From a virus: 35,344 nucleotides of DNA. The notes beneath the pieces were generated by a model, which made no database searches, was not told the DNA's origin, and saw nothing but the letters and a program-made list of their open reading frames with translations. The position numbers and the translations under genes were made by a program. Below are positions 7,557-28,146 of the stretch, piece by piece. Within the stretch, counting starts at the first letter, position 1. Each line of letters starts with the position of its first letter. The stretch spans positions 1 through 35,344 of the IMG/VR virus record IMGVR_UViG_3300043772_003410. One strand, given 5' to 3'.

Positions 7557-7994
7557 TTAGACTATGCCATTCATCATTTTTTGCCAGTCTATTGCAGACT
7601 TTATAGTAAAATTTCTATTATTGAGTGCCTTTAAAAACTCTTCTACCATTTTTACTTTTATCTCGGCTAAAGCAATTTTAGATTTTAAATTTATTAGTTT
7701 TGTATCACCTTCTAAAAACTTTTCCACATCTGTTTTTAATAAATCCAAATCAAATTCTTCTTCGCCCCATTCAGTAAGTTCTTCCTTTGAAGCCTTTCCT
7801 GTTATTATTTTCCACTTACGCAATCTTAAAATTGCATAGTCATTATGATACTTTGTAAGTAACAATTTAAAATCAGACAATAAGTTTAAGTACTTACCGT
7901 GTATTTGTGGTATCTTTAATGCTTCAGAACCTAGTTCTGTAGAATCAACTTGAGAATCTTTAGTTATGTTTTGTTTTAGTTCTTCTAAGTCCAT
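7557..7994 (-). CDS. uvsY: UvsY recombination mediator
   Basis: UvsY loads UvsX recombinase onto gp32-coated single-stranded DNA. The 145-aa product is close to T4 UvsY (137 aa) and shows the same opening pattern: MDLEELKQNITKD, then DSTELGSEALKIP and a HGKYLNLL segment, then a helical, charged C-terminal part. Its place directly before uvsW supports the call. The ATG has no Shine-Dalgarno sequence (upstream is TTTAATTTAA) and lies 36 bases from the first base of a minus-strand TTGACA box, so its mRNA is predicted to have almost no leader. Confidence 0.88.
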   Translation of the reverse strand: MDLEELKQNITKDSQVDSTELGSEALKIPQIHGKYLNLLSDFKLLLTKYHNDYAILRLRKWKIITGKASKEELTEWGEEEFDLDLLKTDVEKFLEGDTKLINLKSKIALAEIKVKMVEEFLKALNNRNFTIKSAIDWQKMMNGIV

Positions 7995-8002
7995 TTAAAT
8001 TA

Positions 8003-8030
8003 AAAATACTATAAGACACTAAAATGTCAA
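8003..8030 (-). promoter_or_regulatory. Sigma70-like promoter for uvsY-uvsW (minus strand)
   Basis: Minus-strand TTGACA (8030-8025), 16-base spacer, weak -10 TATTTT (8008-8003). Predicted start is about 7995-7996, directly before the uvsY ATG at 7994. The -35 match is perfect; the -10 matches 4 of 6. Confidence 0.5.
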
Positions 8031-8048
8031 CTAAATATGGTTGACATT
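8023..8048. repeat. 9-bp inverted repeat made of two divergent TTGACA boxes
   Basis: AATGTCAAC (8023-8031), 8-base spacer, GTTGACATT (8040-8048), perfectly palindromic. Each arm contains a -35 hexamer facing outward, toward uvsY and toward the island operon. It could be an operator for a dimeric regulator or simply two back-to-back promoters. Confidence 0.8.
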
Positions 8049-8070
8049 AAAAAATAAAGTATTATATTAT
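8041..8070 (+). promoter_or_regulatory. Sigma70-like promoter of the island operon
   Basis: TTGACA at 8041-8046, 18-base spacer, TATTAT at 8065-8070; an overlapping TATATT gives a 17-base spacer or less. The predicted start coincides with the ATG at 8075, which has no Shine-Dalgarno sequence. This would drive the coupled glycosyltransferase operon early in infection, independent of gp55. Confidence 0.65.
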
Positions 8071-8074
8071 TATT

Positions 8075-8710
8075 ATGATTTTAGATTTAAGAGAAATACC
8101 AACGGTGTGGATAAATCTTGATTCTGCAACAAAAAACGCAGAAGCAATGGAAAAAAAATTAAAAGATCATGGTTTTAAATACACTTATAGAAAATCCGCT
8201 TGTGTAATAGAGCCTCCTGAAAACACACACTCGTCAATAAAACATTATGTTGGATGTGGACAATCCCATTTAGATATTTTAGAAAATAAAGATTACGGAA
8301 CCCCACTTCTGATACTTGAGGATGACGCCGAGTTTACAGAGGCGTTTAATCCTGTTATGAACATACCAGATAATGCAGATGGCGTATATCTTGGCATTTC
8401 AAAGGGAAATGTGTATTATCAGAGCAAAAGATATAATCCAGACTATTTAAGAATAGCAGGCATACTGGCCACACACGCTATTCTTTATATAAATGAAGAA
8501 TATAGAAAAAAAATGGCAGAGGTTGATAGGCATTGTATTTACAATTTAAAAAGACCTTGGGATCTTGGTGCAGCTGGATTGCAACAAGAATTTAAAGTAT
8601 ATACTCCCAGCAAACCGTATTTTTATCAAGCAGATCACAGGGATTCGGCCAATAAATGGGAAATGCTCACAGACAGTCCTCTTGAAAATAGAAATTCTCC
8701 AAATCTATGA
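8075..8710 (+). CDS. GT25-family glycosyltransferase
   Basis: Putative sugar transferase of CAZy family GT25 (LPS galactosyltransferases and collagen galactosyltransferases). The 211-aa protein begins with the family opening VWINLDSATKNAEAMEKKL (11-29). It carries GCGQSHLDIL at 61-70 (family pattern GCxxSH) and the metal-binding ILEDDAEF at 80-87. It is cytoplasmic with no membrane segment and somewhat shorter than typical bacterial members (about 250 aa). It is the first gene of the island operon, starts at the predicted promoter +1, and overlaps the next gene as ATGA. The acceptor is unknown. Collagen-type targets are worth noting because a giant collagen-like protein is encoded downstream. 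Confidence 0.85.
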   Translation: MILDLREIPTVWINLDSATKNAEAMEKKLKDHGFKYTYRKSACVIEPPENTHSSIKHYVGCGQSHLDILENKDYGTPLLILEDDAEFTEAFNPVMNIPDNADGVYLGISKGNVYYQSKRYNPDYLRIAGILATHAILYINEEYRKKMAEVDRHCIYNLKRPWDLGAAGLQQEFKVYTPSKPYFYQADHRDSANKWEMLTDSPLENRNSPNL

Positions 8711-9495
8711 TAACTTACAATACTATTGGTCGGCATGGAAGATTTGGAAATCAGATGTTTCAGTATGCAGCTCTTTACGGGATTGCAAAAAAGAACAATT
8801 ATGAATTTGGTGTTCCGAGTAAAAATAGAAGCCCAGATGAATACATAGATTACTGTCTACCAGATTGTTTTAAAAATTTATCAGCAAAAGATTCTTCTGG
8901 ATTAATACAAAAAAATTATGCAAAAGAAAAAAGTTTTTCTTTTGATGAAACAATTTTAAATATTCCAGACTTTACAGATATATCTGGTTACTTTCAAACA
9001 GAAAAATATTTTAAAAATTATAGAAGTAATATTTTAAAAGAATTTGATTTTTATCATGATATCAAAACTAAAGCAACCGATATACGATCAAAAATTACCG
9101 ATCCAGTTATAAGTTTACACATAAGGCTAGGAGATTATCTTTATCTCACAGATAGCCATCCAGTTTGCAGCCAAGAATACTATAAAGAAGCATTGAGCAA
9201 TTTGCCCAATGATATTTGTATCTATATTTTTAGTGATGATATGTACAAAGCTGCAAATATATTTCAATCTTTAGATAGAAAGTATATCTTTCCAGAAACC
9301 AATGATAAATATCTTGATATGTGTCTAATGACTATGTGTGATTATCATATTGTAGCAAATAGTTCTTTTAGTTGGTGGGGCGCTTGGCTGTCAGATTCTA
9401 AAAAAGTTATTGGGCCATCCAAATGGTTTGGAGATAATCCAAATATGCCAAGAGACTGGTCAGATATTTATTGCAAAGAATGGATGGTTATATGA
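8707..9495 (+). CDS. GT11 alpha-1,2-fucosyltransferase-like glycosyltransferase
   Basis: 262-aa member of the GT11 family, which transfers L-fucose (rarely another deoxy sugar) from GDP-fucose to galactose-type acceptors. Three family motifs are visible: HGRFGNQMFQYAA at 10-22, the donor-binding HIRLGDY at 138-144 (the usual HxRRxDY has R at the fourth place; here L), and the C-terminal NSSFSWWGAWL at 218-228. Length is normal for bacterial FutC/WbsJ-type enzymes. It overlaps both neighbours by ATGA. No GDP-fucose synthesis genes are seen in the window, so the donor must come from the host or from genes elsewhere. Confidence 0.9.
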   Translation: MITYNTIGRHGRFGNQMFQYAALYGIAKKNNYEFGVPSKNRSPDEYIDYCLPDCFKNLSAKDSSGLIQKNYAKEKSFSFDETILNIPDFTDISGYFQTEKYFKNYRSNILKEFDFYHDIKTKATDIRSKITDPVISLHIRLGDYLYLTDSHPVCSQEYYKEALSNLPNDICIYIFSDDMYKAANIFQSLDRKYIFPETNDKYLDMCLMTMCDYHIVANSSFSWWGAWLSDSKKVIGPSKWFGDNPNMPRDWSDIYCKEWMVI

Positions 9496-10241
9496 AAATT
9501 GCTATTTGTTTATCAGGACAACCTAGATTTTTAGATATTGGTTTTCATTTTTTACAACGATATCTAATAAACCCAAATATTCAGCATGAAATTGATTTCT
9601 TTATCCACAGTTGGTACGATTCGGATGAAGTTGGAAATTTTTTTGATTCAGCTCAGGAATCTCAAAAAAGCATGGTAGGAAAAATTTCAGTTGACTCTGA
9701 TAAACTTTTAATAAATTATTATAAACCAAAAAAATTTATAATAGAACCTCAAAAAAATTTTGATAAGTATACAAAAAAATTAAAAACATCAACAAACGCA
9801 AAACAAAATATTTTGTGCAGTTTGTTTTATTCGATGTATATGGCAAACAATCTTAAAAAAGATTACGAAATACAAAATAATTTTATTTATGATATTGTAT
9901 TAAGAACGAGAACGGATATAGTATATTTTAATGAAATAATTTTTGATAATTATATAAATAATCTGAATAATATAAGTGTCCCCAAAAAATATTTTTTGGA
10001 CCAAGAATCATTTAATAATAAAAATAAACCGATGCCAGATATATTTGCTTTTTCAAATAGTAGAAATATGGATATTTTTTGTTCCGTGTATCCTGAATTT
10101 TTAAATTTAAATTCTGAAATAGATCCAGTATATGGAGAAAATTATTTGGGCGAATGGGTTAGAAATAAAAATAAATTAAATATATCACCAATAGACTGTA
10201 ATTTAACTTTTGTACAAAGAACAAATTTGGCAATTATATGA
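9492..10241 (+). CDS. LSGQ-R family protein, putative glycosyltransferase (paralogue 1)
   Basis: 249-aa protein; I chose the ATG at 9492 because it overlaps the upstream stop (ATGA) and begins the conserved IAICLSGQPRF. Two later island genes (10996, 15248) share the same plan: a first strand ending in LSG-x-x-R, a hydrophobic-aromatic FFIHSWYD-like strand (about 38-45), and a central YDIVLRTRTDIVYF that gives the family pattern D-x-V-I/L-x-x-R-x-D. The R-x-D could be a nucleotide-sugar/metal site, as in GT-A enzymes. Exact family not recognised; glycosyltransferase is inferred from motifs and surroundings. Confidence 0.75.
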   Translation: MKIAICLSGQPRFLDIGFHFLQRYLINPNIQHEIDFFIHSWYDSDEVGNFFDSAQESQKSMVGKISVDSDKLLINYYKPKKFIIEPQKNFDKYTKKLKTSTNAKQNILCSLFYSMYMANNLKKDYEIQNNFIYDIVLRTRTDIVYFNEIIFDNYINNLNNISVPKKYFLDQESFNNKNKPMPDIFAFSNSRNMDIFCSVYPEFLNLNSEIDPVYGENYLGEWVRNKNKLNISPIDCNLTFVQRTNLAII

Positions 10242-10999
10242 ATGTAGTAATACCACTAGTAGGCGAAGGAAAACGTTTCCAATTAGGTGGCTTTGAAGAA
10301 CCAAAGCCATTAATAAAAATTTTTAATAAACCAATTCTCCAACATTCCATAGAGTCTTTAAATATTGATGGTAATTATATTTTTGTTGTTAGAGAGTATG
10401 AAAACAACAAATGGAACCGAGAGCTGTCCTCTCTAATAAAATCGTTGAAACCAAATTCAAAAATTATTTTATCAAAAAAGTTGACTAGAGGTGCTGCAGA
10501 ATCTGTTTTATTAGCAAAAGAAAACATAAATGATGACACGCCTCTTATAGTAACAAATTGTGACCAATATATAGATTGGCAAGAAAACGAATTAAATAAT
10601 TTTTATTTTTCTATTTTAGAAAAAAATTGCGACGCACTTGTAACAACTTTTAATCATATAAATCCGGAACACATAAAAATAAATGAAAAAACTCCATACT
10701 CATTTATTAAAATAAATAAAGATGGTGACGCAACCCAATTTTCTGAAAAAATTGCAATAAGCAAGTTGATGTTAAATGGTATACATTTTTGGAAGAGAGG
10801 TAGTATGTTTGTTCAATCTGCTGAATCTATTATTGAAAAAAATATAAATTATAATAATGAATTTTATGTATCGTTAACTTTTAACGAATTAATTCAAAAA
10901 TATAAAGTAAAACATTTTCAAATGACAGATTCAAGTTTTTATTCATTGGGAACACCAGAAGATGTGGAGTTATTTAAAAATAAAAAAATACTAAAATGA
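10238..10999 (+). CDS. Sugar-phosphate nucleotidyltransferase
   Basis: 253-aa NTP-transferase-fold enzyme that would join a nucleoside monophosphate to a sugar phosphate, giving the activated donor. It shows the nucleotide-binding GEGKRF at 9-14 (variant of GxGTRM/F), the sugar-nucleotidyl lysine motif EPKPLI at 21-26, GAAES at 85-89, and a metal-binding TNCDQYID at 106-113. It ends with a short SLGTPEDVE motif typical of these enzymes. No left-handed beta-helix or acetyltransferase domain is attached. Base and sugar specificity cannot be read. It overlaps both neighbours by ATGA, within the glycosyltransferase operon, and would activate whatever sugar the island makes. Confidence 0.88.
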   Translation: MNVVIPLVGEGKRFQLGGFEEPKPLIKIFNKPILQHSIESLNIDGNYIFVVREYENNKWNRELSSLIKSLKPNSKIILSKKLTRGAAESVLLAKENINDDTPLIVTNCDQYIDWQENELNNFYFSILEKNCDALVTTFNHINPEHIKINEKTPYSFIKINKDGDATQFSEKIAISKLMLNGIHFWKRGSMFVQSAESIIEKNINYNNEFYVSLTFNELIQKYKVKHFQMTDSSFYSLGTPEDVELFKNKKILK

Positions 11000-11748
11000 A
11001 AACAGCATTACTATTATCTGGACATTACAGAACATTCGACACAACATCCAATTTTTGGAAAAAAAATGTAATAGATCAATTTTGTTGCAACGATCACGTT
11101 TATCTCTCTACCTATAATACAGATGGTAGGAGATTAAATAAAGAAATTGACATACGCACTCAAGGATCTTTAAATAATGCTTTATTTGATGGAACATTTT
11201 TAAATTTAGATAAAATAAAAGAAAAAAATATTTTTAAAGACATTATATTTGACGATTATCAAATTATAGAACAAAAAGAAAATTTTAAAGAAAAAACAAA
11301 ATTAATTAAAAATATAATATTTAAAACTTTTAATCAAGACAGAAGAATGGAGTGGTTCTTTTCTCTTTATTATAAAAAACTGGATGGTTTAAAAAATTTA
11401 ATAAAAAAAGATTTATATGACGTTGTTATTTGCAGTAGACCTGATTATGCGCCGAAATCAGTATTTTTTAATAGTGAAACATTAGATAAAGAAAAAATTT
11501 ATCTATCAAGATTAAATATAGAAAACGGTTATCATGATTTTTTTATAATAGGTTCACCGCAAAATTTATTAAAAATATTTAATATATACCACGATATAAA
11601 TGATATTTTAATTCCCCATGTAATAAATCTTGGTAAAATTAATGAAATAACATGTGGACATACTTTACTTACACACTATATTGATGATATATTAAAATTA
11701 AAAGAAAATATAGTAGAAATTGAATTGAATGGAGAATTAGTAAGATGA
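10996..11748 (+). CDS. LSGH-R family protein, putative glycosyltransferase (paralogue 2)
   Basis: 250-aa protein sharing the plan of 9492-10241 and 15248-16090: an opening TALLLSGHYRTF, a VYLSTYNTDGR strand near 36-46, and the central YDVVICSRPDYAPK carrying the R-x-D motif. Very Lys/Asn/Ile-rich, like the rest of the island. Function is inferred as glycosyl transfer from the shared motifs and the coupled operon. The late segment HDFFIIGSPQNLLKIF resembles the region where such enzymes check the acceptor sugar, but that is speculative. Overlaps both neighbours by ATGA. Confidence 0.72.
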   Translation: MKTALLLSGHYRTFDTTSNFWKKNVIDQFCCNDHVYLSTYNTDGRRLNKEIDIRTQGSLNNALFDGTFLNLDKIKEKNIFKDIIFDDYQIIEQKENFKEKTKLIKNIIFKTFNQDRRMEWFFSLYYKKLDGLKNLIKKDLYDVVICSRPDYAPKSVFFNSETLDKEKIYLSRLNIENGYHDFFIIGSPQNLLKIFNIYHDINDILIPHVINLGKINEITCGHTLLTHYIDDILKLKENIVEIELNGELVR

Positions 11749-12575
11749 AAATAAAAATGTATTTTGTTACGTATAATCGACCGAACGATTTAAATGAAAC
11801 TCTGGAATCTTTTTTTAATACTGATCTATTTTTAGATAGTGACTATGACCAAGTTGAAAAAAACGTCTATGTAGTAAATAACCACTCTAACTTTATATTA
11901 AATGAAAAATTTAAAAACAAAGTAAAAGTACTCCATAATGTGCTTAGGCCGGATTTTTCCTGTGGCCATTTAAGTCGAAATTATAATGAAATTTTTATTA
12001 ATGGATTTAAAAATTTAAACAATCCCGACTGTGATATCTTAATGCACAGCCACGACGATAATTATTTTGATAAAAACTTTTTTAAAAATTTATTAGAATA
12101 TAATAAAAAATATGATATTATAACTTTTTCTCAAGGCTGTGGTTTTATGGCTTACACGCCTGAGGCAATAAAAAAAGTAGGTATGTGGGATGAAAGATTT
12201 TGCACAATTGGTTATCATGAAGGTGATTATTTTCTTAGAGCGATAAAATATAATGCTGATAAGACTAGCATAAATGATCCAAATCAACTTAGAACTTGGA
12301 ATCCGCTCCCGCATATAGTTTATAAGATGCCTCACACACATTTGAACACAGCTCATAGAGAAAGCCAAAATTACTATTCAATTTGCAGGCAACTTTTTGA
12401 ATTAAAATGGTCTGGAGTCAAAGATACAAATTTTTCAGCAAAAATATTAAATATTTTGTCTGACCCAGCGATACCTATGCACATGATGTATCCATATTTT
12501 GAAAAAGATCTATATGATATTCAAACTAAATACTTTAAACAAATAGACCTAAATGGAAGGAAATTTATGTCATGA
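11745..12575 (+). CDS. GT2-like glycosyltransferase
   Basis: 276-aa GT-A fold protein. The start IKMYFVTYNRPNDLNETLES is the classic GT2 opening. VYVVNNHSN at 41-49 is the second strand, HSHDDNYF at 101-108 the DxD-like metal site, and VGMWDERF (145-152) with GYHEGDYFLRA (156-166) the acceptor/catalytic ED-type motif common in GT2 and GT27-like enzymes. It lacks a membrane anchor. The late part is His/Met-rich and of unknown purpose. Coupled by ATGA to the genes on either side. Donor and acceptor are unknown. Confidence 0.85.
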   Translation: MKIKMYFVTYNRPNDLNETLESFFNTDLFLDSDYDQVEKNVYVVNNHSNFILNEKFKNKVKVLHNVLRPDFSCGHLSRNYNEIFINGFKNLNNPDCDILMHSHDDNYFDKNFFKNLLEYNKKYDIITFSQGCGFMAYTPEAIKKVGMWDERFCTIGYHEGDYFLRAIKYNADKTSINDPNQLRTWNPLPHIVYKMPHTHLNTAHRESQNYYSICRQLFELKWSGVKDTNFSAKILNILSDPAIPMHMMYPYFEKDLYDIQTKYFKQIDLNGRKFMS

Positions 12576-13258
12576 AATTATTTAAATACGAAGAATTAAA
12601 ATCAAATATAAATGGTTTAAAATTTATTCCAAATTTATTGGAATACAATAACAATGACGATTGGATAGAAAATGTCTATATGTCAAATACAGTGACAAAT
12701 ATAAATGAAAAACACCAAAAAATTACACAAGAATTTTCAGAAAAAAATAAATTAGTCTTAAAATCATTAATCGATGATCTCAAAGCAAAAAATATGTTTA
12801 ATGTTATTCTTGAAATAGGAGTAAATAGAAGCGGAGAACATTCTTCAACTCAATTCATACTAAATAATAAAACCAAGGATACAAAATATATCGGTATTGA
12901 TATGCAACCCGGTTTAATTGCCAGTATTTATAGTGAACAACAAAATAATTATGGTTTGGCAACAGATTCAAGTAATTACGACCAAATTTTAAAATATATT
13001 AATAGTTTAGGTGTCTCTAAAATAGATTTATTCATCATAGATGGCTGGCACTCTGTCAATCAAGTAGTCAAAGACTGGAAGTTTACAGATATTTTAAATT
13101 TAAATGGTCACGTTTTAATGCATGACACAAACTACCATCCAGGCCCTTATTGTGTATATGAAGCTATTGATGAAAATTACTATAAAAAAGAAAAACACTT
13201 ATCTTCAGAATTATATGATTGGGGTGTAGCAACAGCTACAAAAATTAAAAATTATTGA
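12572..13258 (+). CDS. Class I SAM-dependent methyltransferase (Methyltransf_24-like)
   Basis: 228-aa protein with a Rossmann methyltransferase core: motif I VILEIGVNRSGEHSS at 78-92, acidic ribose-binding strand YIGIDM at 106-111, and IDLFIIDGWHSVNQVVKDW at 151-169. That last segment, with GHVLMHDTNYHPGP at 179-192, is characteristic of the Methyltransf_24 / cephalosporin-hydroxylase-like group often found in polysaccharide clusters, where members O-methylate sugars. Residues 1-70 form a charged helical leader. It is the last gene of the ATGA-coupled run that began at 8707; the next gene starts one base after its stop. Confidence 0.85.
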   Translation: MKLFKYEELKSNINGLKFIPNLLEYNNNDDWIENVYMSNTVTNINEKHQKITQEFSEKNKLVLKSLIDDLKAKNMFNVILEIGVNRSGEHSSTQFILNNKTKDTKYIGIDMQPGLIASIYSEQQNNYGLATDSSNYDQILKYINSLGVSKIDLFIIDGWHSVNQVVKDWKFTDILNLNGHVLMHDTNYHPGPYCVYEAIDENYYKKEKHLSSELYDWGVATATKIKNY

Positions 13259-13259
13259 A

Positions 13260-13580
13260 ATGAAAATTTTTAATTTAAAAGATATGCATAGAGGATGGTT
13301 TATTGGTGATTTTGAGCCAAGTGTGTTAAAAACAAAAGATTTTGAAATTGGAATTTTAACACACAAAAAAGATGAAACGTGGCCGAAGCATTATCACAAA
13401 ATTGCCACAGAATATAATGTATTATTAAAAGGAAAAATAAAATTTAATAATACAATAATAGATTGTGGAGATATTTTTATTTTTGAGCCAAATGAAGTAT
13501 CAATTCCAATTTTTTTAGAAGACTGTCAAATTTTATGTGTTAAAACGCCTTCAGTTATAGGTGATAAATATATATTGTAA
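13260..13580 (+). CDS. Small cupin-domain protein
   Basis: 106-aa single-domain cupin. WPKHYHKIATEYNVLLKGKIKF (about 41-62) matches cupin motif 1 with metal ligands H44, H46 and E51. GDIFIFEPNEV (71-81) matches motif 2, which normally carries a further His; here that His appears replaced. Similar lone cupins in sugar loci act as epimerases or isomerases of keto-sugars, or as sensors. It starts at the second base after the methyltransferase stop and is followed 12 bases later by the RuBisCO-like gene, so a joint sugar-phosphate role is plausible but inferred. Confidence 0.75.
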   Translation: MKIFNLKDMHRGWFIGDFEPSVLKTKDFEIGILTHKKDETWPKHYHKIATEYNVLLKGKIKFNNTIIDCGDIFIFEPNEVSIPIFLEDCQILCVKTPSVIGDKYIL

Positions 13581-13592
13581 TAGGAGACTAAT

Positions 13593-14789
13593 ATGAATTT
13601 ATTTGTAAATGAAAATGATTTAGACAAAAAAAAATACTTCATAGTAAATTATAAAATAGAAACTAATAAAAATTTAAAAGAAGCTGCATGGAATATTGCA
13701 ATAGGTCAAAGTGTTGGAAATCCAAACGTAAGAAATAAATGGGAAACAGAAAAGCTATTTGAAGATCATTCGTGTTTAATTTTGGCAAATGAAAGCGAAC
13801 TTGCTAAAAAAGTTGAAGGAGAAGTAAAAATAGCTTTTCCAATAATTAATACGTGCTGGGAAACCGATGGAATAAGCCATCTACTATGTCAAATTCTTGG
13901 AGGTCATGTTGATATAGATTTAATAAAAAAATGTAGAGTTTTATCAATCAGTTTTCCAGATACTGTAAAAAAGTATTTTTTAAAACCAAAATTCGGAATA
14001 ACTGGAATTAGAAGTTTTACGGGACAATATAATAAACCGCTATTTGGTGCTATTATAAAACCAAAAATAGGAATAAGCCCAGAAACTCTTCTTGATATGG
14101 TAAAAGAACTGGTCGATGGTGGTGTTGATTTCATAAAAGAAGATGAGATAATGTCAAACCCTTCTTTTTGTCCTTTAAACAAAAGAGTAGAATTAATATC
14201 AAAATACCTTTCCACACAGTCTAAAAAAGTGGTATTTTGTCATACAATAAATTGCGATCCCCACATATTAGAAAGTCGCGTAAAAGAAGTTTATTCTATG
14301 GGTGGAAATGGAGTGCATATAAATGTATGGAGTGGTTATGGTGCATATAATAGCATCAGAAAATTAAATCTTCCTTTGTATATCCATTTTCAAAGTAGTG
14401 GGGCTAAAGTGATTACAAATAAAACTAATCAATTTAGTATTAGTTGGACTGTAATTTGTCAGATTGCTAGTATGGTAGGCGTTGACACAATACAGACAGG
14501 AATGGTGGGTGGTTATAGCAACGACGATCCGGAAGAAATATTAGATTGTATAAAAATTTTACGTGAAGGAAACACGATACCGGCACTAAGTTGCGGTATG
14601 CATCCGGGCCTAGTTGAAAAAATTACATCTCTGGTAGGAACAGATTATCTCGCAAATGCCGGGGGCGCCGTTCATGGCCACCCAAATGGAACATTGTCTG
14701 GATCTTTTGCAATGCGCCAAGCAATCGATAAAAATTATGGAAAAGAATATAAAGAAGCAATCAAAAAATGGGGTAAAGTTGATGCTTAA
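13593..14789 (+). CDS. RuBisCO-like protein (form IV)
   Basis: 398-aa homologue of the RuBisCO large subunit. Barrel motifs align clearly: GAIIKPKIGIS (K156/K158, equivalent to spinach K175/K177), GGVDFIKEDE (K182, D184, E185, equivalent to carbamylated K201 and metal ligands D203/E204), IHFQ (H265 for H294), PALSCGMH (S333 for S379) and AGGAVHGHP (G357/G358 for G403/G404). Loop 6 reads GMVGGYSND, so catalytic K334 is replaced by Tyr; R295 becomes Phe and H327 becomes Gln. True carboxylation is therefore not expected. It is more likely an enolase, isomerase or decarboxylase on a phosphorylated keto-sugar, as for MtnW or the apionate-pathway RLPs. A strong AGGAG precedes the ATG, the best ribosome site in the island. 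Confidence 0.93.
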   Translation: MNLFVNENDLDKKKYFIVNYKIETNKNLKEAAWNIAIGQSVGNPNVRNKWETEKLFEDHSCLILANESELAKKVEGEVKIAFPIINTCWETDGISHLLCQILGGHVDIDLIKKCRVLSISFPDTVKKYFLKPKFGITGIRSFTGQYNKPLFGAIIKPKIGISPETLLDMVKELVDGGVDFIKEDEIMSNPSFCPLNKRVELISKYLSTQSKKVVFCHTINCDPHILESRVKEVYSMGGNGVHINVWSGYGAYNSIRKLNLPLYIHFQSSGAKVITNKTNQFSISWTVICQIASMVGVDTIQTGMVGGYSNDDPEEILDCIKILREGNTIPALSCGMHPGLVEKITSLVGTDYLANAGGAVHGHPNGTLSGSFAMRQAIDKNYGKEYKEAIKKWGKVDA

Positions 14790-14810
14790 TTTTATATTAG
14801 AGAAAATAAA

Positions 14811-15251
14811 ATGAAAATAATATCACATAGAGGAAATTTAAATGGCCCCGATAGCTCAATCGAAAATAATCCAAAATTTATCGAAACAGCAGTAAAAGCT
14901 GGCTTTGATGTAGAGATTGATGTTTGGTATTTAAATAATCATTTTTACTTAGGTCATGACAATCCCGTTTATCAAGTTAGTGTAGACTGGTTAAAAACCA
15001 TGCCTTTATGGTGTCATTGTAAAAATAAAGAAGCTTTAATAAAACTTCTTGACAATGATGTTCACTGCTTCTGGCACGAATCGGATGAGGTTACTTTAAC
15101 AAGTAAAAATTATATATGGAATTATTATAAAAATATTTTTCCTACAAAAAAAAGTATTATGGTTTTACCGGAAATGCAAGAAAATATAAATTTTAATAAT
15201 TTTTATGGTATATGCACCGATTATCCAGAAAGATATGTGAATTTATTATGA
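14811..15251 (+). CDS. Compact glycerophosphodiester phosphodiesterase-like protein
   Basis: 146-aa TIM-barrel-type GDPD/PI-PLC-like domain, far shorter than ordinary GDPDs (about 240-300 aa). It keeps the hallmarks: HRG at 6-8, the metal pair in FDVEIDV (E35, D37), GHD (H49) and the terminal CTDYPERY, equivalent to the family's TD-x-P closing motif. The middle of the barrel is condensed. Such short versions occur in polysaccharide loci. It could hydrolyse a phosphodiester on a glycan or lipid carrier. It lies 21 bases after the RuBisCO-like gene and overlaps the next gene by ATGA. Confidence 0.75.
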   Translation: MKIISHRGNLNGPDSSIENNPKFIETAVKAGFDVEIDVWYLNNHFYLGHDNPVYQVSVDWLKTMPLWCHCKNKEALIKLLDNDVHCFWHESDEVTLTSKNYIWNYYKNIFPTKKSIMVLPEMQENINFNNFYGICTDYPERYVNLL

Positions 15252-16090
15252 ACGTCGCAATACTTTTAAGTGGACATTTTAGAACAACAGAGTATCAAAA
15301 GTTATTTAATCTTTATAAAAATAATTTAATTGATATAAATAAAAATTATAATTTTGATTTTTTTATAAGTACTTGGTCGGACACAGGTTTAAGAAAAAAC
15401 TTTGATTATGATTTAGACAGAAATGATGGAATTGTTCCAGGCGATAAGATAGAAGAACAAAAAATAAAAGATATATTCAATCCAGTTTTTTTAAAAATTG
15501 AAAATTTTGAAGAAAAATACGATTATTTTAAACAAAAAACAAAAAAAATATATGAACTGCGAGACGAATACATAAAAAATTTTTTAATAGACCCCAACCT
15601 ACTTTATAATAGAATTTTAGCAAATTGCTCAATGTGGTACAAATGGTCAGATGTAGAAAAATTAAAAAACAATTACAAAACATCAACAAATAAAAAATAT
15701 GACTGTGTAATAAAAACTAGATGTGATTTAATTTTTAAAAAACCTTTTCCTTTTGATTTAAAAGAATACTCCAACAAAAAAATTATAACACCACCGTGGC
15801 CTGATACACGTAGGCCATACAGCACAGATTTAGATTTTAATAAACAAATAAATGATTGGTGGATGGCTGGAGATGAAAGCTTAATTGAAATTATAAATTC
15901 ACTGTATGATTCTTATGAAAACATTTTTGAAGAAATGAAAGAACCGGATAAAATAAAAGATTTTTTAAATCCACATAGACTTCCTGTATATTTTTTAGAA
16001 AAAAATGGAGTTGATATTGCAGCAATTCACAGACTGCCAATTCCATGTACGAATCAAACTAGCATTTGTTCAAGAACAAATATTTTTTAA
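15248..16090 (+). CDS. LSGH-R family protein, putative glycosyltransferase (paralogue 3)
   Basis: 280-aa protein from the ATG at 15248, which overlaps the GDPD stop (ATGA); a start at 15212 would overrun that gene. Opens VAILLSGHFRT, has FDFFISTWSDTG at about 38-49, and the central YDCVIKTRCDLIFK with the R-x-D motif, matching paralogues at 9492 and 10996. A late DWWMAGDES segment and an Arg/Pro-rich HRLPVYF end may shape the acceptor site. It ends the transcription unit before the RibB promoter. Function is inferred. Confidence 0.73.
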   Translation: MNVAILLSGHFRTTEYQKLFNLYKNNLIDINKNYNFDFFISTWSDTGLRKNFDYDLDRNDGIVPGDKIEEQKIKDIFNPVFLKIENFEEKYDYFKQKTKKIYELRDEYIKNFLIDPNLLYNRILANCSMWYKWSDVEKLKNNYKTSTNKKYDCVIKTRCDLIFKKPFPFDLKEYSNKKIITPPWPDTRRPYSTDLDFNKQINDWWMAGDESLIEIINSLYDSYENIFEEMKEPDKIKDFLNPHRLPVYFLEKNGVDIAAIHRLPIPCTNQTSICSRTNIF

Positions 16091-16097
16091 TTTATTT

Positions 16098-16130
16098 TTG
16101 ACAAATTGTTTTTATAAGTTAGTATATATA
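16098..16130 (+). promoter_or_regulatory. Sigma70-like promoter before RibB
   Basis: TTGACA at 16098-16103, then TTAGTATATATA beginning 21 bases after the first T, the same spacing as upstream of gp55. A 25-base leader with AGGA (16147-16150) leads to the ATG at 16157, so this one is not leaderless. Confidence 0.6.
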
Positions 16131-16156
16131 TTGATAGCTCGTTTTTAGGAAAAAAT

Positions 16157-16765
16157 ATGAAAAATATAAATAAAATTTTAAATGATGTTAAACGTGGAAA
16201 GCCAGTCATCATCATCGATGATAGCAATAGAGAAGATGAAGCAGATATAGTTATTGCAGCAGAAGCTGTAAATGAATATAATCTTGTTTTTTCTATGCGT
16301 CATGCAAAAGGTTTAATGTGTATCCCATGCACACAAGAAAAATTAAATCAGTTTAATATAAAAATGATGAATTCAAATGGTTTGGATGATTTGGGTACGC
16401 CATTTGCAACATCTATTGATGCAGTTGAAGGCACAACTACTGGAATGTCTGTCCACGATAGGCTAAAAACAATTAAAATTTTTGTAGATGAAAATTCTAA
16501 ACCAGGGCAACTAGCACAACCCGGGCATCTATTTCCATTATGTGGAAAGCCAAATCTCTTAAAAGATAGAAGAGGGCATACAGAATCATCTTTAGAATTA
16601 GTAAAGTTGGCTGGGTTTAAACCAATTTCAATTATAATTGAAATTATGAATGACGACGGAACCATGACAAAAGGCAATCAAATATACACTTTTGCCAAAA
16701 TATATGACTTAAAAATTATTACTGTGGATGAAATATATAATGCCGTTTATAACAAGAGCTTATAA
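16157..16765 (+). CDS. ribB: 3,4-dihydroxy-2-butanone 4-phosphate synthase (RibB)
   Basis: Converts D-ribulose 5-phosphate to L-3,4-dihydroxy-2-butanone 4-phosphate plus formate, normally the first branch of riboflavin synthesis. The 202-aa protein is near full length (E. coli RibB 217 aa) and keeps the signature motifs: DDSNREDEADIVIAAE (acidic metal/substrate loop, residues 21-36), FATSIDA and TTGMSVHDR, PGHLFPL, RRGHTESSLEL, and a IIEIMNDDGTM strand. No GTP cyclohydrolase II domain is attached. It has its own promoter and heads a set with an APH-type kinase, a HAD phosphatase and a transaldolase-family aldolase. This fits a dedicated sugar-phosphate use better than flavin supply, since no other rib genes are present. 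Confidence 0.95.
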   Translation: MKNINKILNDVKRGKPVIIIDDSNREDEADIVIAAEAVNEYNLVFSMRHAKGLMCIPCTQEKLNQFNIKMMNSNGLDDLGTPFATSIDAVEGTTTGMSVHDRLKTIKIFVDENSKPGQLAQPGHLFPLCGKPNLLKDRRGHTESSLELVKLAGFKPISIIIEIMNDDGTMTKGNQIYTFAKIYDLKIITVDEIYNAVYNKSL

Positions 16766-17699
16766 CAGAATAAACTATAATAAAAATAATCTTTCAATAA
16801 TAAAAATAAGTGAAACTGAAAGATTACTTGATGAAATAAATTATTATAAAAACATACCAGAAGATTTAAAATATTTTTTTCCTAATTTTTATTCTTCAAA
16901 AGAAGAAAAACCATACAGTTTAGAACTGGAATATTATAGCTATAAAAATATAGCTCACTATTTTATACAAGAGTCTTTTGGGTTGGTATTTTGGGAATCT
17001 GTTTTAAAAATTTTATTTGATATTATTAGTAGATTTGAAAATCATGTTTTGGATTTACCTAATGAAGAATCTAAAAAATATGCAAACATGATGTTAATAA
17101 ATAAAACAGAAAATGAATATTTTAATTTAAAAAATAAATTTTTATATTTTTCCAATCTTTGCTCTAAAAAATCTTTTAAATTAAACAATAAAATATATTT
17201 AAATTTTGAAGAAATATGGCCAGAAGTTAAAAAAAATTTAAATAATATAATAGAAAAAAATAATAAATTTTCTTTTATTCATGGCGATTTTTGTTTTTCA
17301 AATATTTTATTGGGTTACCACCCATCATTACCAGATAAAACTGTCAAATTGATAGATCCCAGGGGATCATTTGGTTTAAATGGCTGTTATGGGTTAAGTA
17401 TATATGATTATTCAAAACTTTTGCATTCTATTGATGGTGGTTATGAATCATTTATATATGATGAGTTTAAATTAATAGAAGACTCAGAAAATGATTACAG
17501 GCTCACATATAATATGACACAAAATAAAGATATAGCTTTATCTGTTTTTAAATCTATGACAGATAAAGAAAAATATAAAATATACAGTTTAATTCAAGGT
17601 TTAATTTTTGTTGGAATGTGCGCAAGACATTACGATGATTTAAACAGACAAAAAGCAATGTATTTGACTGGTGTAAAATACTTAAATGAAAGTCTATAA
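16728..17699 (+). CDS. APH/choline-kinase-like phosphotransferase
   Basis: 323-aa small-molecule kinase of the aminoglycoside-phosphotransferase fold. The catalytic loop is FIHGDFCFSNIL (HGD at 185-187, N192) and the metal-binding motif is VKLIDPRGSFG (D210-P211-R212-G213), a DPRG form typical of family members in capsule loci. The N-lobe is divergent; E67-L-E may be the hinge. It begins inside the ribB end (38-base overlap); the ATG at 16740 is an alternative start. Likely substrate is a sugar or sugar alcohol, inferred from neighbours RibB and the HAD phosphatase. Confidence 0.85.
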   Translation: MKYIMPFITRAYNRINYNKNNLSIIKISETERLLDEINYYKNIPEDLKYFFPNFYSSKEEKPYSLELEYYSYKNIAHYFIQESFGLVFWESVLKILFDIISRFENHVLDLPNEESKKYANMMLINKTENEYFNLKNKFLYFSNLCSKKSFKLNNKIYLNFEEIWPEVKKNLNNIIEKNNKFSFIHGDFCFSNILLGYHPSLPDKTVKLIDPRGSFGLNGCYGLSIYDYSKLLHSIDGGYESFIYDEFKLIEDSENDYRLTYNMTQNKDIALSVFKSMTDKEKYKIYSLIQGLIFVGMCARHYDDLNRQKAMYLTGVKYLNESL

Positions 17700-17705
17700 A
17701 AAATT

Positions 17706-18077
17706 ATGTTAAAAATTTGCGTTGACATGGACGGAACAATTTGTAAAAATAAAAATAAGGATCAAGATTATTATGATGTTGAACCAACAGAAAATTGTGT
17801 AAAAATTTTACAAAATTTAAAATCAAAAGGTTATTATATTGTGATCCATACCGCCAGAGGAATGAGAACTTTTAATAATAACCACGGTAGAGTTATAGCA
17901 GAACATTCTAAAAAATTAACAGAGTGGTTAAAAAAATGGGAAATTCCATTTGATGAATTATTGTTTGGAAAACCACACGTGGATTATTTTATAGACGACA
18001 AAGGATACAGATTCGATAATTGGGATAACGTTTACAATTTTTTAACAGAAAAAGAAAAGGAACAAAAAAATGTTTAA
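17706..18077 (+). CDS. HAD-superfamily phosphatase (capsule-type)
   Basis: 123-aa minimal HAD hydrolase without a cap domain. It contains motif I CVDMDGTIC (nucleophile D7, acid/base D9), motif II VIHTARGM (T49), motif III K89 in GKPHVDYF, and motif IV FIDDKG (D97/D98). The sequence type matches small HADs in bacterial capsule and LPS loci that dephosphorylate sugar phosphates. It starts 7 bases after the kinase stop and overlaps the aldolase start by 8 bases, so kinase, phosphatase and aldolase are one unit. Confidence 0.88.
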   Translation: MLKICVDMDGTICKNKNKDQDYYDVEPTENCVKILQNLKSKGYYIVIHTARGMRTFNNNHGRVIAEHSKKLTEWLKKWEIPFDELLFGKPHVDYFIDDKGYRFDNWDNVYNFLTEKEKEQKNV

Positions 18078-18882
18078 TTACTTTATAGATACAGCTGATT
18101 GCAAATATATCACTTCTTTGTGGGAAAAAATAAAAAAGAATTCATCACAAAAAGCTATGTTGGGGGTGACTACAAATCCAAATGCTTTTTTTAAAACTGG
18201 TGACTTGTCACTTAAACAATGGGTAGAAAAATCAAAAGAGTTATCTAATATTATCTGCGAGATTAGAGAAGATTATGAAGGAGAATTGCATATTCAATTT
18301 CCCAACTCAAATATAGATGAAAAATATTTTAAAAAATTTATAGATATTCTCCCAGAATTTTCAAATAACAATAAAGTAAAGCTATGTATTAAGATTCCAC
18401 CATTTCAAAATGCTTTGAATGTGGCAGAAAAATATAAAAAAAATTATAATTTAAATGTTACTGGAACCGCAGATGCATCGACAGCCTTGATGGCATTATC
18501 ATATGGTATAAAATACCTTTCTATTATTCCTGGAAGAATGGAAGAACAGGGATTAAACGCAAAATCTCATGTTGCTTTTATTCAAAAAAGAAAAAATAAA
18601 GAAAATTACATTATAACAGGAAGCATGAGAACACTAGAAGGATTAAAGTGGTGTGTAGAATATGGAACAATCCCCACCGTTGGAACAAAAGTATGGGATC
18701 AGATTACAAAAAATAATATAGAAGATGTTTTTAATTATAAGGATACTCCAGAAAATAGAATATCCATTGAAACAAAATTTGGACCATTCACAAGTATTGT
18801 AAATAATGATTTATCAAATTCATTTTTTAATGAAATGGATTCAAAAGGAAATAATTGTTTTAATGATTTAATAAATTATTAA
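18070..18882 (+). CDS. Transaldolase / fructose-6-phosphate aldolase family protein
   Basis: 270-aa TIM-barrel Schiff-base aldolase of the transaldolase/TalC-FSA group. Opening YFIDTADCKYI, then GVTTNPNAFF at 32-41, then LCIKIPPF with the probable Schiff-base lysine K108, NVTGTADASTALMALSYG, and LSIIPGRMEEQGLNA correspond in order to family motifs (IDTA, GVTTNP, VKIP, NVT, VGR). Longer than the minimal FSA/TalC (about 220 aa), with extra residues around 45-75 and a 30-residue C-terminal extension. Cyanophage TalC is the known phage relative, but here the gene sits with RibB, kinase and HAD in a glycan island. It could join a 3-carbon ketose unit to an aldehyde, making the sugar skeleton. Substrate unknown. 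Confidence 0.88.
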   Translation: MFNYFIDTADCKYITSLWEKIKKNSSQKAMLGVTTNPNAFFKTGDLSLKQWVEKSKELSNIICEIREDYEGELHIQFPNSNIDEKYFKKFIDILPEFSNNNKVKLCIKIPPFQNALNVAEKYKKNYNLNVTGTADASTALMALSYGIKYLSIIPGRMEEQGLNAKSHVAFIQKRKNKENYIITGSMRTLEGLKWCVEYGTIPTVGTKVWDQITKNNIEDVFNYKDTPENRISIETKFGPFTSIVNNDLSNSFFNEMDSKGNNCFNDLINY

Positions 18883-18918
18883 TATATAAAAAATTATTTA
18901 AAATTTTTAAAAAATAAC

Positions 18919-19020
18919 ATGAGATGTTTAGTAACTGGTGGAGCAGGATTTACTCTAGAAAATATTGATAAAATCAAAAAGCATCTTGTCTGGAATTCAA
19001 CTGCAAATTTGCAAGAATAG
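18919..19020 (+). pseudogene. Remnant of an NAD-dependent sugar epimerase/dehydratase
   Basis: A 33-codon reading frame beginning MRCLVTGGAGF, the diagnostic N-terminus (first strand and GxxGxxG loop) of SDR-type nucleotide-sugar epimerases/dehydratases, which should continue to about 310-350 residues. After residue 11 the sequence jumps to TLENIDKIKKHL and stops at TAG, so the body of the gene is missing. This looks like an internal deletion leaving both ends. It lies in the 196-base gap between the aldolase gene and gp55, which otherwise holds only A/T-rich sequence and the gp55 promoter. Confidence 0.6.
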
Positions 19021-19044
19021 ATTGCAGCAAATACGTGCAATTAA

Positions 19045-19075
19045 TTGACTTTTTTATAATTTATGTTAGTATAAT
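19045..19075 (+). promoter_or_regulatory. Sigma70-like promoter before gp55
   Basis: TTGACT at 19045-19050 with TTAGTATAAT starting 21 bases after the first T (TATAAT at 19070-19075). The GTG start of gp55 is 34 bases from the first T, the same distance as at the island promoter, so +1 falls on or next to the start codon. Confidence 0.6.
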
Positions 19076-19078
19076 ACC

Positions 19079-19654
19079 GTGGAAAAGAAAAAAAGAAAAA
19101 AGTCAAAACCATCTGATGCTGATTATGTAGATAACCAGCAGTTATACAGCTCTTTGGTTGACTATAAAAAAAAGTGTAAAGAAGCAGAATCTAATGGTAA
19201 AAAAAAGCCAAAACTTCCAGACTATATTGGTGAGTGTATATTAAAAATAGCCACCAGACTTTCATATAGGCCAAATTTTGCAAACTACCCATATAGAGAA
19301 GAAATGGTTTCTGATGGTGTATTAAACTGCATAACCTACATAGACAATTTTGATCCTAAACTTTCAACCAGCCCATTTGGGTATCTTACCCAAATATGCT
19401 GGTTTTCTTTTGTTCGTATAATAAACAAAGAAAAGAAAGAAAAGTATACTCAATACAAGTTTGCAGAACAACAAAACAACAAAGATTTTCAAAATTGGTT
19501 TAATGAAGTTTATGCGGGTGTTGATGTTGGAAGAAAAGACTTTTTTGGTTTAACCGATTCTGATATGGAAAGATTTGATCAGTTGTGCACCCCCAAAAAG
19601 ACAAAAAGAAAAAAGTCTAAACTAAACAATAAAAAAAATTCATTGGATATTTGA
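19079..19654 (+). CDS. 55: Late-transcription sigma factor gp55
   Basis: gp55 replaces host sigma70 on RNA polymerase to read TATAAATA late promoters, coupled to the gp45 clamp. The 191-aa product (T4: 185 aa) has a Lys-rich start, then YVDNQQLYSSLVDYKKK, IGECILKIATRLSYRPNFANY, REEMVSDGVLNCITYIDNFD and SPFGYLTQICWFSFVRIINKEKKEK. These line up in order with the YVNNKELLQ, IAEGLSKRFNFSGY, EMIADGIEA and [21 protein letters not shown] segments of T4 gp55. It starts with GTG and has no Shine-Dalgarno sequence; no in-frame ATG exists before about residue 80. It ends by overlapping gp47. Confidence 0.93.
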   Translation: MEKKKRKKSKPSDADYVDNQQLYSSLVDYKKKCKEAESNGKKKPKLPDYIGECILKIATRLSYRPNFANYPYREEMVSDGVLNCITYIDNFDPKLSTSPFGYLTQICWFSFVRIINKEKKEKYTQYKFAEQQNNKDFQNWFNEVYAGVDVGRKDFFGLTDSDMERFDQLCTPKKTKRKKSKLNNKKNSLDI

Positions 19655-26362: not shown

Positions 26363-26758
26363 ATGAGCGCTAACTATGACATATCAATAATACAGGGAGA
26401 CAGTTTTAGATGGGCCATGTACCTAGACAATGGCGGGACTGCATACGACCTTAGCGGTTGCACGCTTTCCATGCAGTTAAGAAAAGGCTACTATCCGTCA
26501 ACCTTAGTTGCTTCATACGTTATAAATGTTCCAACAGGATTTACTGGTGCGACAATGCCAGAAGGAATGTTTGGTGGTTTGTGTGCATCTGCAACGGGAG
26601 GAACAATATACGTTTCAATTGGTGCAACGTATACCAGCCAGCTTACTCCAAATTCTACACCAAAATATGATTTGCAAATCATCAACCCGGTGGGAAATAC
26701 GGTTACTACAATTTTAAGAGGAACAATAGAAGTTCTAGATGAGGTTACCAGAATATAA
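26363..26758 (+). CDS. Fibre/baseplate adaptor-like protein (BppU N-domain-like)
   Basis: 131-aa beta-rich protein. The start ISIIQGDSFRWAMYLDNGGTAYDLSGCTLSMQLRKG matches a widespread phage domain (pattern: QG-x-x-F, then D-L-(S/T)-G and M-Q-(L/I)-R) found at the N-terminus of baseplate-upper and fibre-attachment proteins. The end YDLQIINPVGNTVTTILRGTIEVLDEVTR completes the domain. GGAG precedes the ATG. The stop shares one base with the next fibre gene (TAATG), so it is likely a connector for the fibre proteins that follow. Confidence 0.7.
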   Translation: MSANYDISIIQGDSFRWAMYLDNGGTAYDLSGCTLSMQLRKGYYPSTLVASYVINVPTGFTGATMPEGMFGGLCASATGGTIYVSIGATYTSQLTPNSTPKYDLQIINPVGNTVTTILRGTIEVLDEVTRI

Positions 26759-28146
26759 TGCCAGACATTACTGTGAGTAATGATGGTTCTTATCCAACAT
26801 TAAATGTTCAAGTTGCGCAGCAGACACCATCATTTATAGCCAATCCTAATGTTACTCAGGTAACCGTAGAAGATGCGGGTGAATATCCCAGTTTAACAGT
26901 AACAACTGGTTCACAGTACCCTACATTAATAATAACGCCCCCCCAAGAAATAATAATAGGTGGAGGCGGTGGAAGCAGCGTAGCTGGTAGGGACGGCGCA
27001 CAAGGAACGCAGGGAACACAGGGTTCTCAGGGAATCCAAGGAATTCAGGGAATAAGAGGTCTACAGGGAAATCCTGGAGACAGATATAGCACAAAATCTG
27101 CAACCTCATTAACTGTTGGTTCTTTGACGACAGTTACAATGACGGTTTCGGATAATGATCTAGCTTACATTCCAAAACAAGAAGTAGTTGTTGTAAGTTC
27201 TGTTAACCCAAATGTTTATTTTAATGCAACTGTAGTATCTTACTCTGGCTACACTTTGGTTATCAATGTAACCAGTCAAACTGGTAGCGGAACATACAGT
27301 GCTTGGGGTGTAAATCTTACTGGTATACAAGGCCCCCCCGGAAATACTGGTGCAACAGGTTCAATAAGCATAAACGAGCAACTTTTTGATCAAAATACTG
27401 GAATAACAAAAACTGCAAGTTTCACAACAGGAACCTCCGGATTAGCAAGAAAATTAGTATTTTTGGCTCAAGATGGAAGTTTAACATTCGATTACATAAG
27501 AAATTATGATGTATTTAATCCTGCAGATTTAACGTTTGCAATTTCTAGTTTTACATCAAATATTTCTTCAAGTAATTTGATTGGATCTGGAAACTTCAGT
27601 TTAAATTCAAAGACGGCAACTATTGCTTATTCTGCTGTAAGCATTCCTACTGGACTTACTTTATCAATTTCTTCTGGCTTTGGATTCCCAATTACGGTCA
27701 GTTCACCATATACATCATATAATTTTACAAGCGCTGCTGGTGTAACATATTCAAGTCCACCACAGACAATAACATTAACAGCAACCGCTAGAAATGCTTC
27801 TGGATCAAGTTCAGTAGCAACTTTAAATTTTAGTTTTATAAACAATATTTATTATGGAGTTTCCAGTAATACTACTTTGACCTCAGCTGAGGTAATTGCC
27901 TTAACCCCAGTTTTACAAAATTCAAAATCTTACACTTTTACTGTAACTCCCGGGGAGGGACAATATATTTACTACGCATATCCACAAAGACTGGGGACAG
28001 TAATATTTACAGTAGGTGGATTTCCAGGTGGATTTAATATTCCAGTAAGTTTGTCTGTCACAAATAGCAATGGTTATGCTGAAAACTACTACATATATGG
28101 GAGCATTAACCCTAGTTTAGGTAGCACCACGGTTGTAGTCACTTAA
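26758..28146 (+). CDS. Tail fibre protein with collagen-like segments
   Basis: 462-aa structural protein. Residues 1-62 contain three imperfect copies of a YP-(T/S)-L motif (SYPTLNV, EYPSLTV, QYPTLII). A Gly-rich stretch (67-76) leads to a short Gly-x-Gln collagen-like rod (77-108). A small beta domain follows (about 109-188, LAYIPKQEVVVVSS to GTYSAWGVNL), of a kind often found between collagen-like segments of phage fibres. A second GIQGPPGNTGATG segment (189-201) precedes a Ser/Thr-rich C-terminal region of beta-sandwich character. Likely a trimeric accessory fibre; start coupled to the gene before it. Confidence 0.82.
   Translation: MPDITVSNDGSYPTLNVQVAQQTPSFIANPNVTQVTVEDAGEYPSLTVTTGSQYPTLIITPPQEIIIGGGGGSSVAGRDGAQGTQGTQGSQGIQGIQGIRGLQGNPGDRYSTKSATSLTVGSLTTVTMTVSDNDLAYIPKQEVVVVSSVNPNVYFNATVVSYSGYTLVINVTSQTGSGTYSAWGVNLTGIQGPPGNTGATGSISINEQLFDQNTGITKTASFTTGTSGLARKLVFLAQDGSLTFDYIRNYDVFNPADLTFAISSFTSNISSSNLIGSGNFSLNSKTATIAYSAVSIPTGLTLSISSGFGFPITVSSPYTSYNFTSAAGVTYSSPPQTITLTATARNASGSSSVATLNFSFINNIYYGVSSNTTLTSAEVIALTPVLQNSKSYTFTVTPGEGQYIYYAYPQRLGTVIFTVGGFPGGFNIPVSLSVTNSNGYAENYYIYGSINPSLGSTTVVVT

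Follow-up and report, generated by a model that had tools for sequence, protein, structure and literature searches.

A sugar gene island in a viral genome fragment

The window analysed here is the entire 35,344-base IMG/VR virus record IMGVR_UViG_3300043772_003410, probably a genome fragment of a virus of bacteria. It carries an island of sugar genes (positions 8075–18882), every one on the + strand and nearly without gaps, in which we recognize two conserved gene sets, cassette A and cassette B. Cassette A encodes RibB (3,4-dihydroxy-2-butanone 4-phosphate (DHBP) synthase; 16157–16765), a sugar kinase with a predicted APH fold (16728–17699), a HAD phosphatase of the EcbF/BcbF kind (17706–18077) and a Schiff-base aldolase of the transaldolase/FSA family (18070–18882). 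Cassette B encodes a small cupin-like protein (13260–13580), a RuBisCO-like protein (RLP) that belongs to a separate clade (13593–14789) and a mini glycerophosphodiesterase-like protein (GDPD) of 146 residues (14811–15251). The sugar-phosphate nucleotidyltransferase (NTase) of the window lies at 10238–10999.

All genes named in the initial annotation, which was made from the sequence alone, are open, same-strand and tightly packed frames at these positions, and the frames and the Pfam, NCBIfam and structure searches agree with its recognition of an RLP, a full-length RibB, a transaldolase-family aldolase, a kinase, a HAD phosphatase and an NTase. That annotation drew the island at 13260–18882. 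The genes it listed there are real, but it overlooked the mini-GDPD and a glycosyltransferase-like gene (15212–16090), and the true extent is 8075–18882.

Cassette A is a conserved unit

The window NTase scores above the cut-off of Pfam NTP_transferase (E 2.7e-11) and has a profile match to Protein Data Bank (PDB) entry 4evw (3e-34). RibB scores as a DHBP synthase (Pfam DHBP_synthase E 6e-63, 212 bits against a cut-off of 26; TIGR00506, 179.7 bits against 177.45), and its RE.E.D and RRGHTE residues are invariant or nearly so across 13 phage copies. The aldolase belongs to the TAL_FSA family (E 1.1e-7, 31.9 bits against a cut-off of 27; profile match to PDB 3r8r, 2e-7). Its Schiff-base Lys108 (in KIPP) is invariant in 15 of 15 sequences, among which the GxTTNPNAF motif, Asn129, Arg156 and Ser185 are also invariant or nearly so. 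The HAD protein, initially described as capsule-type, is indeed a relative of EcbF-BcbF (TIGR01689, E 1.3e-22) but is not a member by the curated cut-off (80.1 bits against 162); its DxDxT and DD residues are invariant in 12 sequences.

The family phrog_3980 matches the window NTase and the window RibB through different halves, and a fused protein must therefore exist in other phages. In Synechococcus phage S-SKS1 (NC_020851) the NTase and RibB are a single protein, followed by the kinase, HAD phosphatase and aldolase. In the public annotation of this region (35955–39493) the module is hidden by misleading names: the HAD protein is entered as a 'phosphoheptose isomerase', the fusion as 'DHBP synthase' alone and the kinase as hypothetical.

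Using alignments of the window and S-SKS1 proteins as queries, we scanned 2.9 million viral contigs and obtained 7 loci with RibB and 18 with the aldolase. Every complete locus has the NTase, RibB, kinase, HAD phosphatase and aldolase in this order on a single strand with overlapping ends. The 24 aldolase-bearing locus records (including S-SKS1, the window and repeated loci) represent 10 lineages at 90% aldolase identity and 7 at 75%. Order and strand are kept in all 24, save for cuts at contig edges and the displaced NTase of the window, and RibB is missing from only one, a contig-edge fragment. Most records have the NTase and RibB in a single open reading frame (ORF). L119 and L120 have them as separate neighbours, and the window alone puts 5 kb between them. 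The five genes, NTase to aldolase, are one conserved unit. Searches of 397 Pelagibacterales and 385 Alphaproteobacteria genomes, groups in which there was no positive control, gave no cassette A aldolase.

Five cassette-A loci (L116, L117, L118, L130 and L131) have a second NTase and a GDPD after the cassette and no RLP. In the frames read for L116 and L131, a HAD_2 phosphatase and a sulfotransferase-like gene stand beside this second NTase, and L116 also has an APS-kinase-like gene; these gene resemblances hint at a sulfated sugar.

The cassette A kinase has a predicted APH fold

The kinase has no match by sequence in Pfam or the PDB. Its AlphaFold2 model (mean pLDDT 89) is most similar in Foldseek to 5-methylthioribose (MTR) kinase (prob 1.00, E 8e-6), with aminoglycoside kinases (APH) next, also at prob 1.00. 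Structural alignment with VIA-align gave Z scores of 15–17.8 over 214–272 residues, led by PsiK (Z 17.8, rmsd 5.0, 262 aligned) and MTR kinase 2pup (Z 17.5, rmsd 4.6 Å, 263 aligned) and followed by APH and choline kinases (Z 15–16.6). The motifs HGDxxxxN...DPRG (HGDxxxxN and DxxG) are invariant. The model thus identifies the protein as a member of the APH/choline kinase fold, as the initial annotation had proposed. MTR kinase is an anomeric kinase of a 5-modified ribose, and AmgK, another sugar kinase, has an APH-like fold.

A RuBisCO-like protein marks a second cassette

The window RLP scores above the cut-off of Pfam RuBisCO_large (E 2e-36). We kept the best 80 of 168 relatives on viral contigs, which together with the window gave 60 groups after merging sequences more than 95% identical. 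Within 9 kb of the phage RLP genes there is an NTase in 58 of the 60 groups, a GDPD-like gene in 48 and a cupin in 43, and in 54 the NTase is on the same strand no more than 1.5 kb from the RLP. The cassette A aldolase or kinase was seen near none of the 60 groups except the window. NTase, cupin, RLP and GDPD are a second conserved cassette.

The cupin, also named in the initial annotation, is identified by its H-x-H-x4-E motif, by its conservation near phage RLPs and by a match to phrog_24762, but its Pfam score (Cupin_7, 0.009) is below the cut-off. The mini-GDPD has no Pfam match and falls short of a full PF03009 domain. Its profile does reach the full-length PF03009 proteins of two related loci (L096 and L097) in their N-terminal half, and the catalytic residues HRG..EN..E.D..GHD are kept in 83 sequences.

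The NTase is fused to a HAD phosphatase in three RLP loci (L050, 8559–9665; L060, 13566–14963; L062, 6774–8138), which repeats the phosphatase-plus-NTase theme of cassette A. Cyanophage S-CAM9 also has what appears to be an NTase–HAD phosphatase fusion. One RLP locus (L009, 4966–6088) additionally has genes for a kinase and an adenylyltransferase of the heptose type, read as HldE-like; judged from this locus, several sugar routes can share one island.

A scan of one genome per species across 84,980 species found 22 cellular RLP loci, in hosts that include SAR11, Crocinitomicaceae, Patescibacteria, archaea, Verrucomicrobia, Elusimicrobia, Azospirillum and three Legionella. In 18 of the 22, Legionella included, the nearest NTase is no more than 1 kb from the RLP. 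In Legionella nautarum, L. drozanskii and L. maceachernii (L101–L103) the NTase directly follows the RLP, a LicD-family gene is divergent upstream (LicD E 1e-42 in L101) and there is no other sugar cluster around the pair. In SAR11, cassette B is located in clusters of the envelope polysaccharide type. In several SAR11 loci (L089, L090 and L092–L095) the RLP is directly flanked by two different NTases, of which the upstream one is divergent, and a GDPD precedes them; this arrangement suggests either two activation steps or a regulatory partner. Cellular copies of the RLP are rare (at E ≤ 1e-60, 3 of 397 Pelagibacterales have one), and in these scans viral contigs yielded its branch more often than cellular genomes did. 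A tblastn search of 50,697 phage records gave no match, so the known members of the clade come only from uncultivated viruses and some cells.

The RLP belongs to a separate branch of the RuBisCO superfamily

The RLP model (pLDDT 92) has a RuBisCO fold, with form III RuBisCO as its nearest match. In a midpoint-rooted tree that also contained form I, II and III RuBisCO, MtnW, a Burkholderia RLP and eleven other RLP-type proteins (three of the reference rows being taken from search alignments), the phage and cellular members all fall into one group, a clade read without a formal test.

With RuBisCO numbering mapped by motif, the 42 members of the group keep K175, K177, K201, D203, E204, S379, G381 and G403/G404, but have E60G, T65N, N123G, H294Q and K334Y in every member in which the site is aligned. 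Other sampled RLPs show the reverse at two of these sites, keeping H294 and losing K177. The protein therefore has the fold and homology of a form IV RuBisCO-like protein in the broad sense and lacks the complete residue set of carboxylating RuBisCO (E60, N123, H294, R295 and K334 with K175, K201, D203 and E204). Judged by these residues, it should not be a carboxylase, and it can plausibly bind metal and a P1-type phosphate and enolize.

The RLP is far below every NCBIfam equivalog cut-off, including those of OiaX (145 of 700 bits, E 2.5e-42) and MtnW (125 of 514 bits). We rejected a role in methionine salvage on the basis of this MtnW score and because no salvage genes were recognized among the neighbour families of the phage RLP loci; MtnW also stands apart in the tree. 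A 2007 ocean survey reported unplaced RuBisCO-like groups (PMC1821046), which may include this clade.

The two cassettes are separate

An RLP profile had a match in 0 of 22 records (17 cassette A virus records, S-SKS1 and four other cyanophages), and an aldolase profile in 0 of 48 RLP records, some of them 187–274 kb; controls were positive where expected. No record seen other than the window has both cassettes, and cassette A is complete without an RLP in other phages. Because of this absence of co-occurrence outside the window, we judge the cassettes to be separate.

The initial annotation had proposed a joint pathway, and had reasoned that it would be unsupported if close homologues of its genes never co-occur. 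The core of that proposal survives: RibB, aldolase and NTase do co-occur and, with the kinase and HAD phosphatase, form one unit, with an NTase–RibB fusion, no riboflavin genes and a separate TalC. The inclusion of the RLP and cupin as steps does not survive, because the RLP never accompanies these genes outside the window and its cassette has its own NTase and GDPD-like protein.

In a tree of the NTases, the window enzyme falls into a group with RibB-linked NTases (0.986) and has two RLP-linked ones as neighbours, and it may therefore serve either cassette, possibly both. The NTases of cassettes A and B are homologous, and their sequences do not settle which cassette the window enzyme serves.

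Genomic setting

The island is flanked by a UvsW gene and a gp55-like gene. T4-type core genes in the window include a sliding clamp and UvsW, recognized by Pfam, and capsid, tail tube and other genes recognized by reading. Several RLP loci (L012, L015, L027 and L034) also adjoin uvsW, like the island of the window (7994–19079), and this shared position suggests a common insertion hotspot.

The first part of the island (8075–13258, + strand) contains, besides the NTase, glycosyltransferase-like genes starting at 8075, 8707 (GT11, E 2e-20), 9471, 10996 and 11745, those other than GT11 being recognized by similarity among loci, and a methyltransferase starting at 12572 (Methyltransf_24, E 1.5e-4). 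Their products are likely to use or modify activated sugars. Scans for promoters, terminators and late promoters gave results at about chance level. A very long collagen-like Gly-X-Y repeat ORF (28163–35344) continues beyond the edge of the contig, and another, shorter ORF of this kind lies at 26758–28146; both are likely to encode tail or fibre proteins.

Proposed routes to activated sugars

We favour, with slightly better than even confidence, the reading that these are two independent conserved cassettes, each making a nucleotide-activated sugar for the adjoining glycosyltransferases. We infer all substrates and products, the order in which the enzymes act and a surface glycan, not DNA, as the destination, as follows. 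In cassette A, RibB would convert ribulose 5-phosphate to 3,4-dihydroxy-2-butanone 4-phosphate and formate, and the lysine aldolase would couple this C4 keto-phosphate with an aldehyde to give a chain-altered sugar phosphate, deoxy-ketose-like or acetyl-branched depending on which carbon attacks. The HAD enzyme would then take off the phosphate, the APH-fold kinase would phosphorylate the anomeric hydroxyl and the NTase would form the nucleoside diphosphate (NDP)-sugar, by analogy with the action of MupP, AmgK and MurU on N-acetylmuramic acid (MurNAc) 6-phosphate. In cassette B, the metal-dependent RLP would enolize, isomerize or decarboxylate a mono-phosphorylated keto-sugar, and the NTase would activate the product. 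The glycosyltransferases that adjoin the cassettes suggest that the activated sugars go onto a phage glycan or one in the host envelope.

Several points weigh against this reading. FSA-type aldolases normally take dihydroxyacetone-type donors, and we know of no precedent for the RibB product as an aldolase donor or acceptor. PsiK, MTR kinase, APH and choline kinases lie within about 2.5 Z units of one another in VIA-align, and the modelled kinase could phosphorylate a position other than the anomeric hydroxyl. The proposed roles of the HAD phosphatase and GDPD are drawn from their families, the window has just one NTase for two cassettes, and many of the records are fragments.

One alternative is that the activated sugars are placed on phage DNA, like arabinose in RB69, and not on a surface glycan or the host envelope. 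Coliphage RB69 and its relatives have an NTase–kinase fusion related to the window kinase and linked to arabinosyl-hydroxymethylcytosine DNA, but the many glycosyltransferases of the island, its GT11 and its nucleotide-sugar enzymes are typical of gene clusters for envelope polysaccharides, and SAR11 has cassette B in such clusters; we consider this alternative unlikely. To a similar degree we doubt that the RLP is a decarboxylase (or, in reverse, a carboxylating enzyme) acting on a branched sugar acid phosphate in the manner of OiaC/OiaX, to yield a tetrulose phosphate for the NTase. The retained metal-binding and P1-phosphate residues and the sub-threshold match to the OiaX model are consistent with this, but His294 and other residues kept by sampled RLPs and RuBisCOs are lost and no gene was found for making the acid.

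It is very unlikely that cassette A serves auxiliary metabolism, with RibB giving the infected cell more riboflavin and the aldolase acting as an ordinary pentose-phosphate transaldolase. The full-length RibB with its conserved catalytic residues would fit, as would the carriage of TalC by cyanophages for host metabolism, but RibB is mostly fused to the NTase and always has the kinase, HAD phosphatase and aldolase after it. Neither RibH (PF00885) nor RibA (PF00925), its partners in riboflavin synthesis, was found in 10 cassette A records, among them the complete 208-kb genome of S-SKS1; the same searches were positive in control genomes, and the host could still provide both. This bears out the initial observation of a RibB without other riboflavin genes, and we rejected riboflavin supply as the role of the cassette. 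The aldolase fails the FSA/TalC equivalog cut-offs (29.5 bits against 246 for TIGR00875; 35 against 214 for PRK12656) and has 22–27% identity to TalC. S-SKS1 encodes an ordinary TalC elsewhere in addition to the cassette aldolase, which is therefore not its pentose-phosphate transaldolase, and we rejected identification of the cassette enzyme as an ordinary TalC.

The least probable alternative is one joint pathway in which a single sugar passes in turn through the RLP, RibB, aldolase, kinase, HAD phosphatase and NTase, which the single + strand run, the single NTase and the placement of that NTase between RibB-linked and RLP-linked enzymes would suit, but which we rejected on the absence of co-occurrence in all 22 and 48 records, the 187–274 kb contigs included, and on the completeness of cassette A without an RLP.

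Implications and comparison with known systems

Phage sugar-activation modules are of an already known kind. What would be new is a phage route in which the C4 keto-phosphate from RibB and an aldolase build a chain-altered sugar, together with a separate cassette in which an undescribed RLP clade makes another activated sugar, a proposal that we hold tentatively and rate somewhat below an even chance. Neither the RibB–aldolase–kinase–HAD–NTase unit nor the RLP–NTase–cupin–GDPD unit was found in the open-access literature that was searched. To our knowledge, RibB is known only from vitamin B2 synthesis. If the proposal is correct, RibB would gain a second biological role and glycan synthesis its first RuBisCO relative, the RLP of cassette B; a function would be assigned to an orphan branch of the RuBisCO superfamily, and sugars not yet seen in nature would be predicted. 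Both cassettes are small and present in cultured organisms or isolates (cassette A in S-SKS1, the RLP–NTase pair in Legionella) and are hence directly testable.

The RLP shares with MtnW and OiaC/OiaX the fold, K175, the K201/D203/E204 metal site and the phosphate-binding glycines. It differs from them in forming its own clade, in having Gln for His294, Tyr for Lys334 and Gly for E60 and N123, and in its NTase and GDPD partners; it also retains K177, which is replaced by M or N in the MtnW and Burkholderia RLP references. The cassette RibB resembles riboflavin RibB in sequence family and catalytic residues, but is without riboflavin partners, is fused to an NTase and lies among sugar-activating genes. 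The HAD/NTase/GDPD sugar clusters of cyanophages S-CAM9, Bellamy, S-SM2 and B23 likewise combine glycosyltransferase genes with a related NTase, a GDPD-like gene and in some cases a cupin, but have no RLP (0 of 4 whole genomes) and no RibB module.

In RB69-type phages, a kinase of the same family as the window kinase is fused to an NTase (RB69 ORF53_52c), in a module proposed to make UDP-arabinose (PMC6024577). As in cassette A, this is an NTase with a related kinase in a T4-like phage, for which a pentose-phosphate-derived sugar is suggested; the RB69 module differs in that no RibB or aldolase is known, the sugar is put on DNA and the kinase match covers only the C-terminal 140 residues, at 28%. 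In Pseudomonas, MupP, AmgK and MurU turn MurNAc 6-phosphate into UDP-MurNAc (PMC5371407). The likeness of cassette A to this system is one of enzyme kind, with no sequence identity claimed: a HAD phosphatase, an APH-like anomeric sugar kinase and a small NTase lead from a sugar phosphate to an NDP-sugar. There the sugar is salvaged MurNAc, whereas in cassette A the triad would act after RibB, which is mostly fused to the NTase, and the aldolase, the proposed builders of the sugar.

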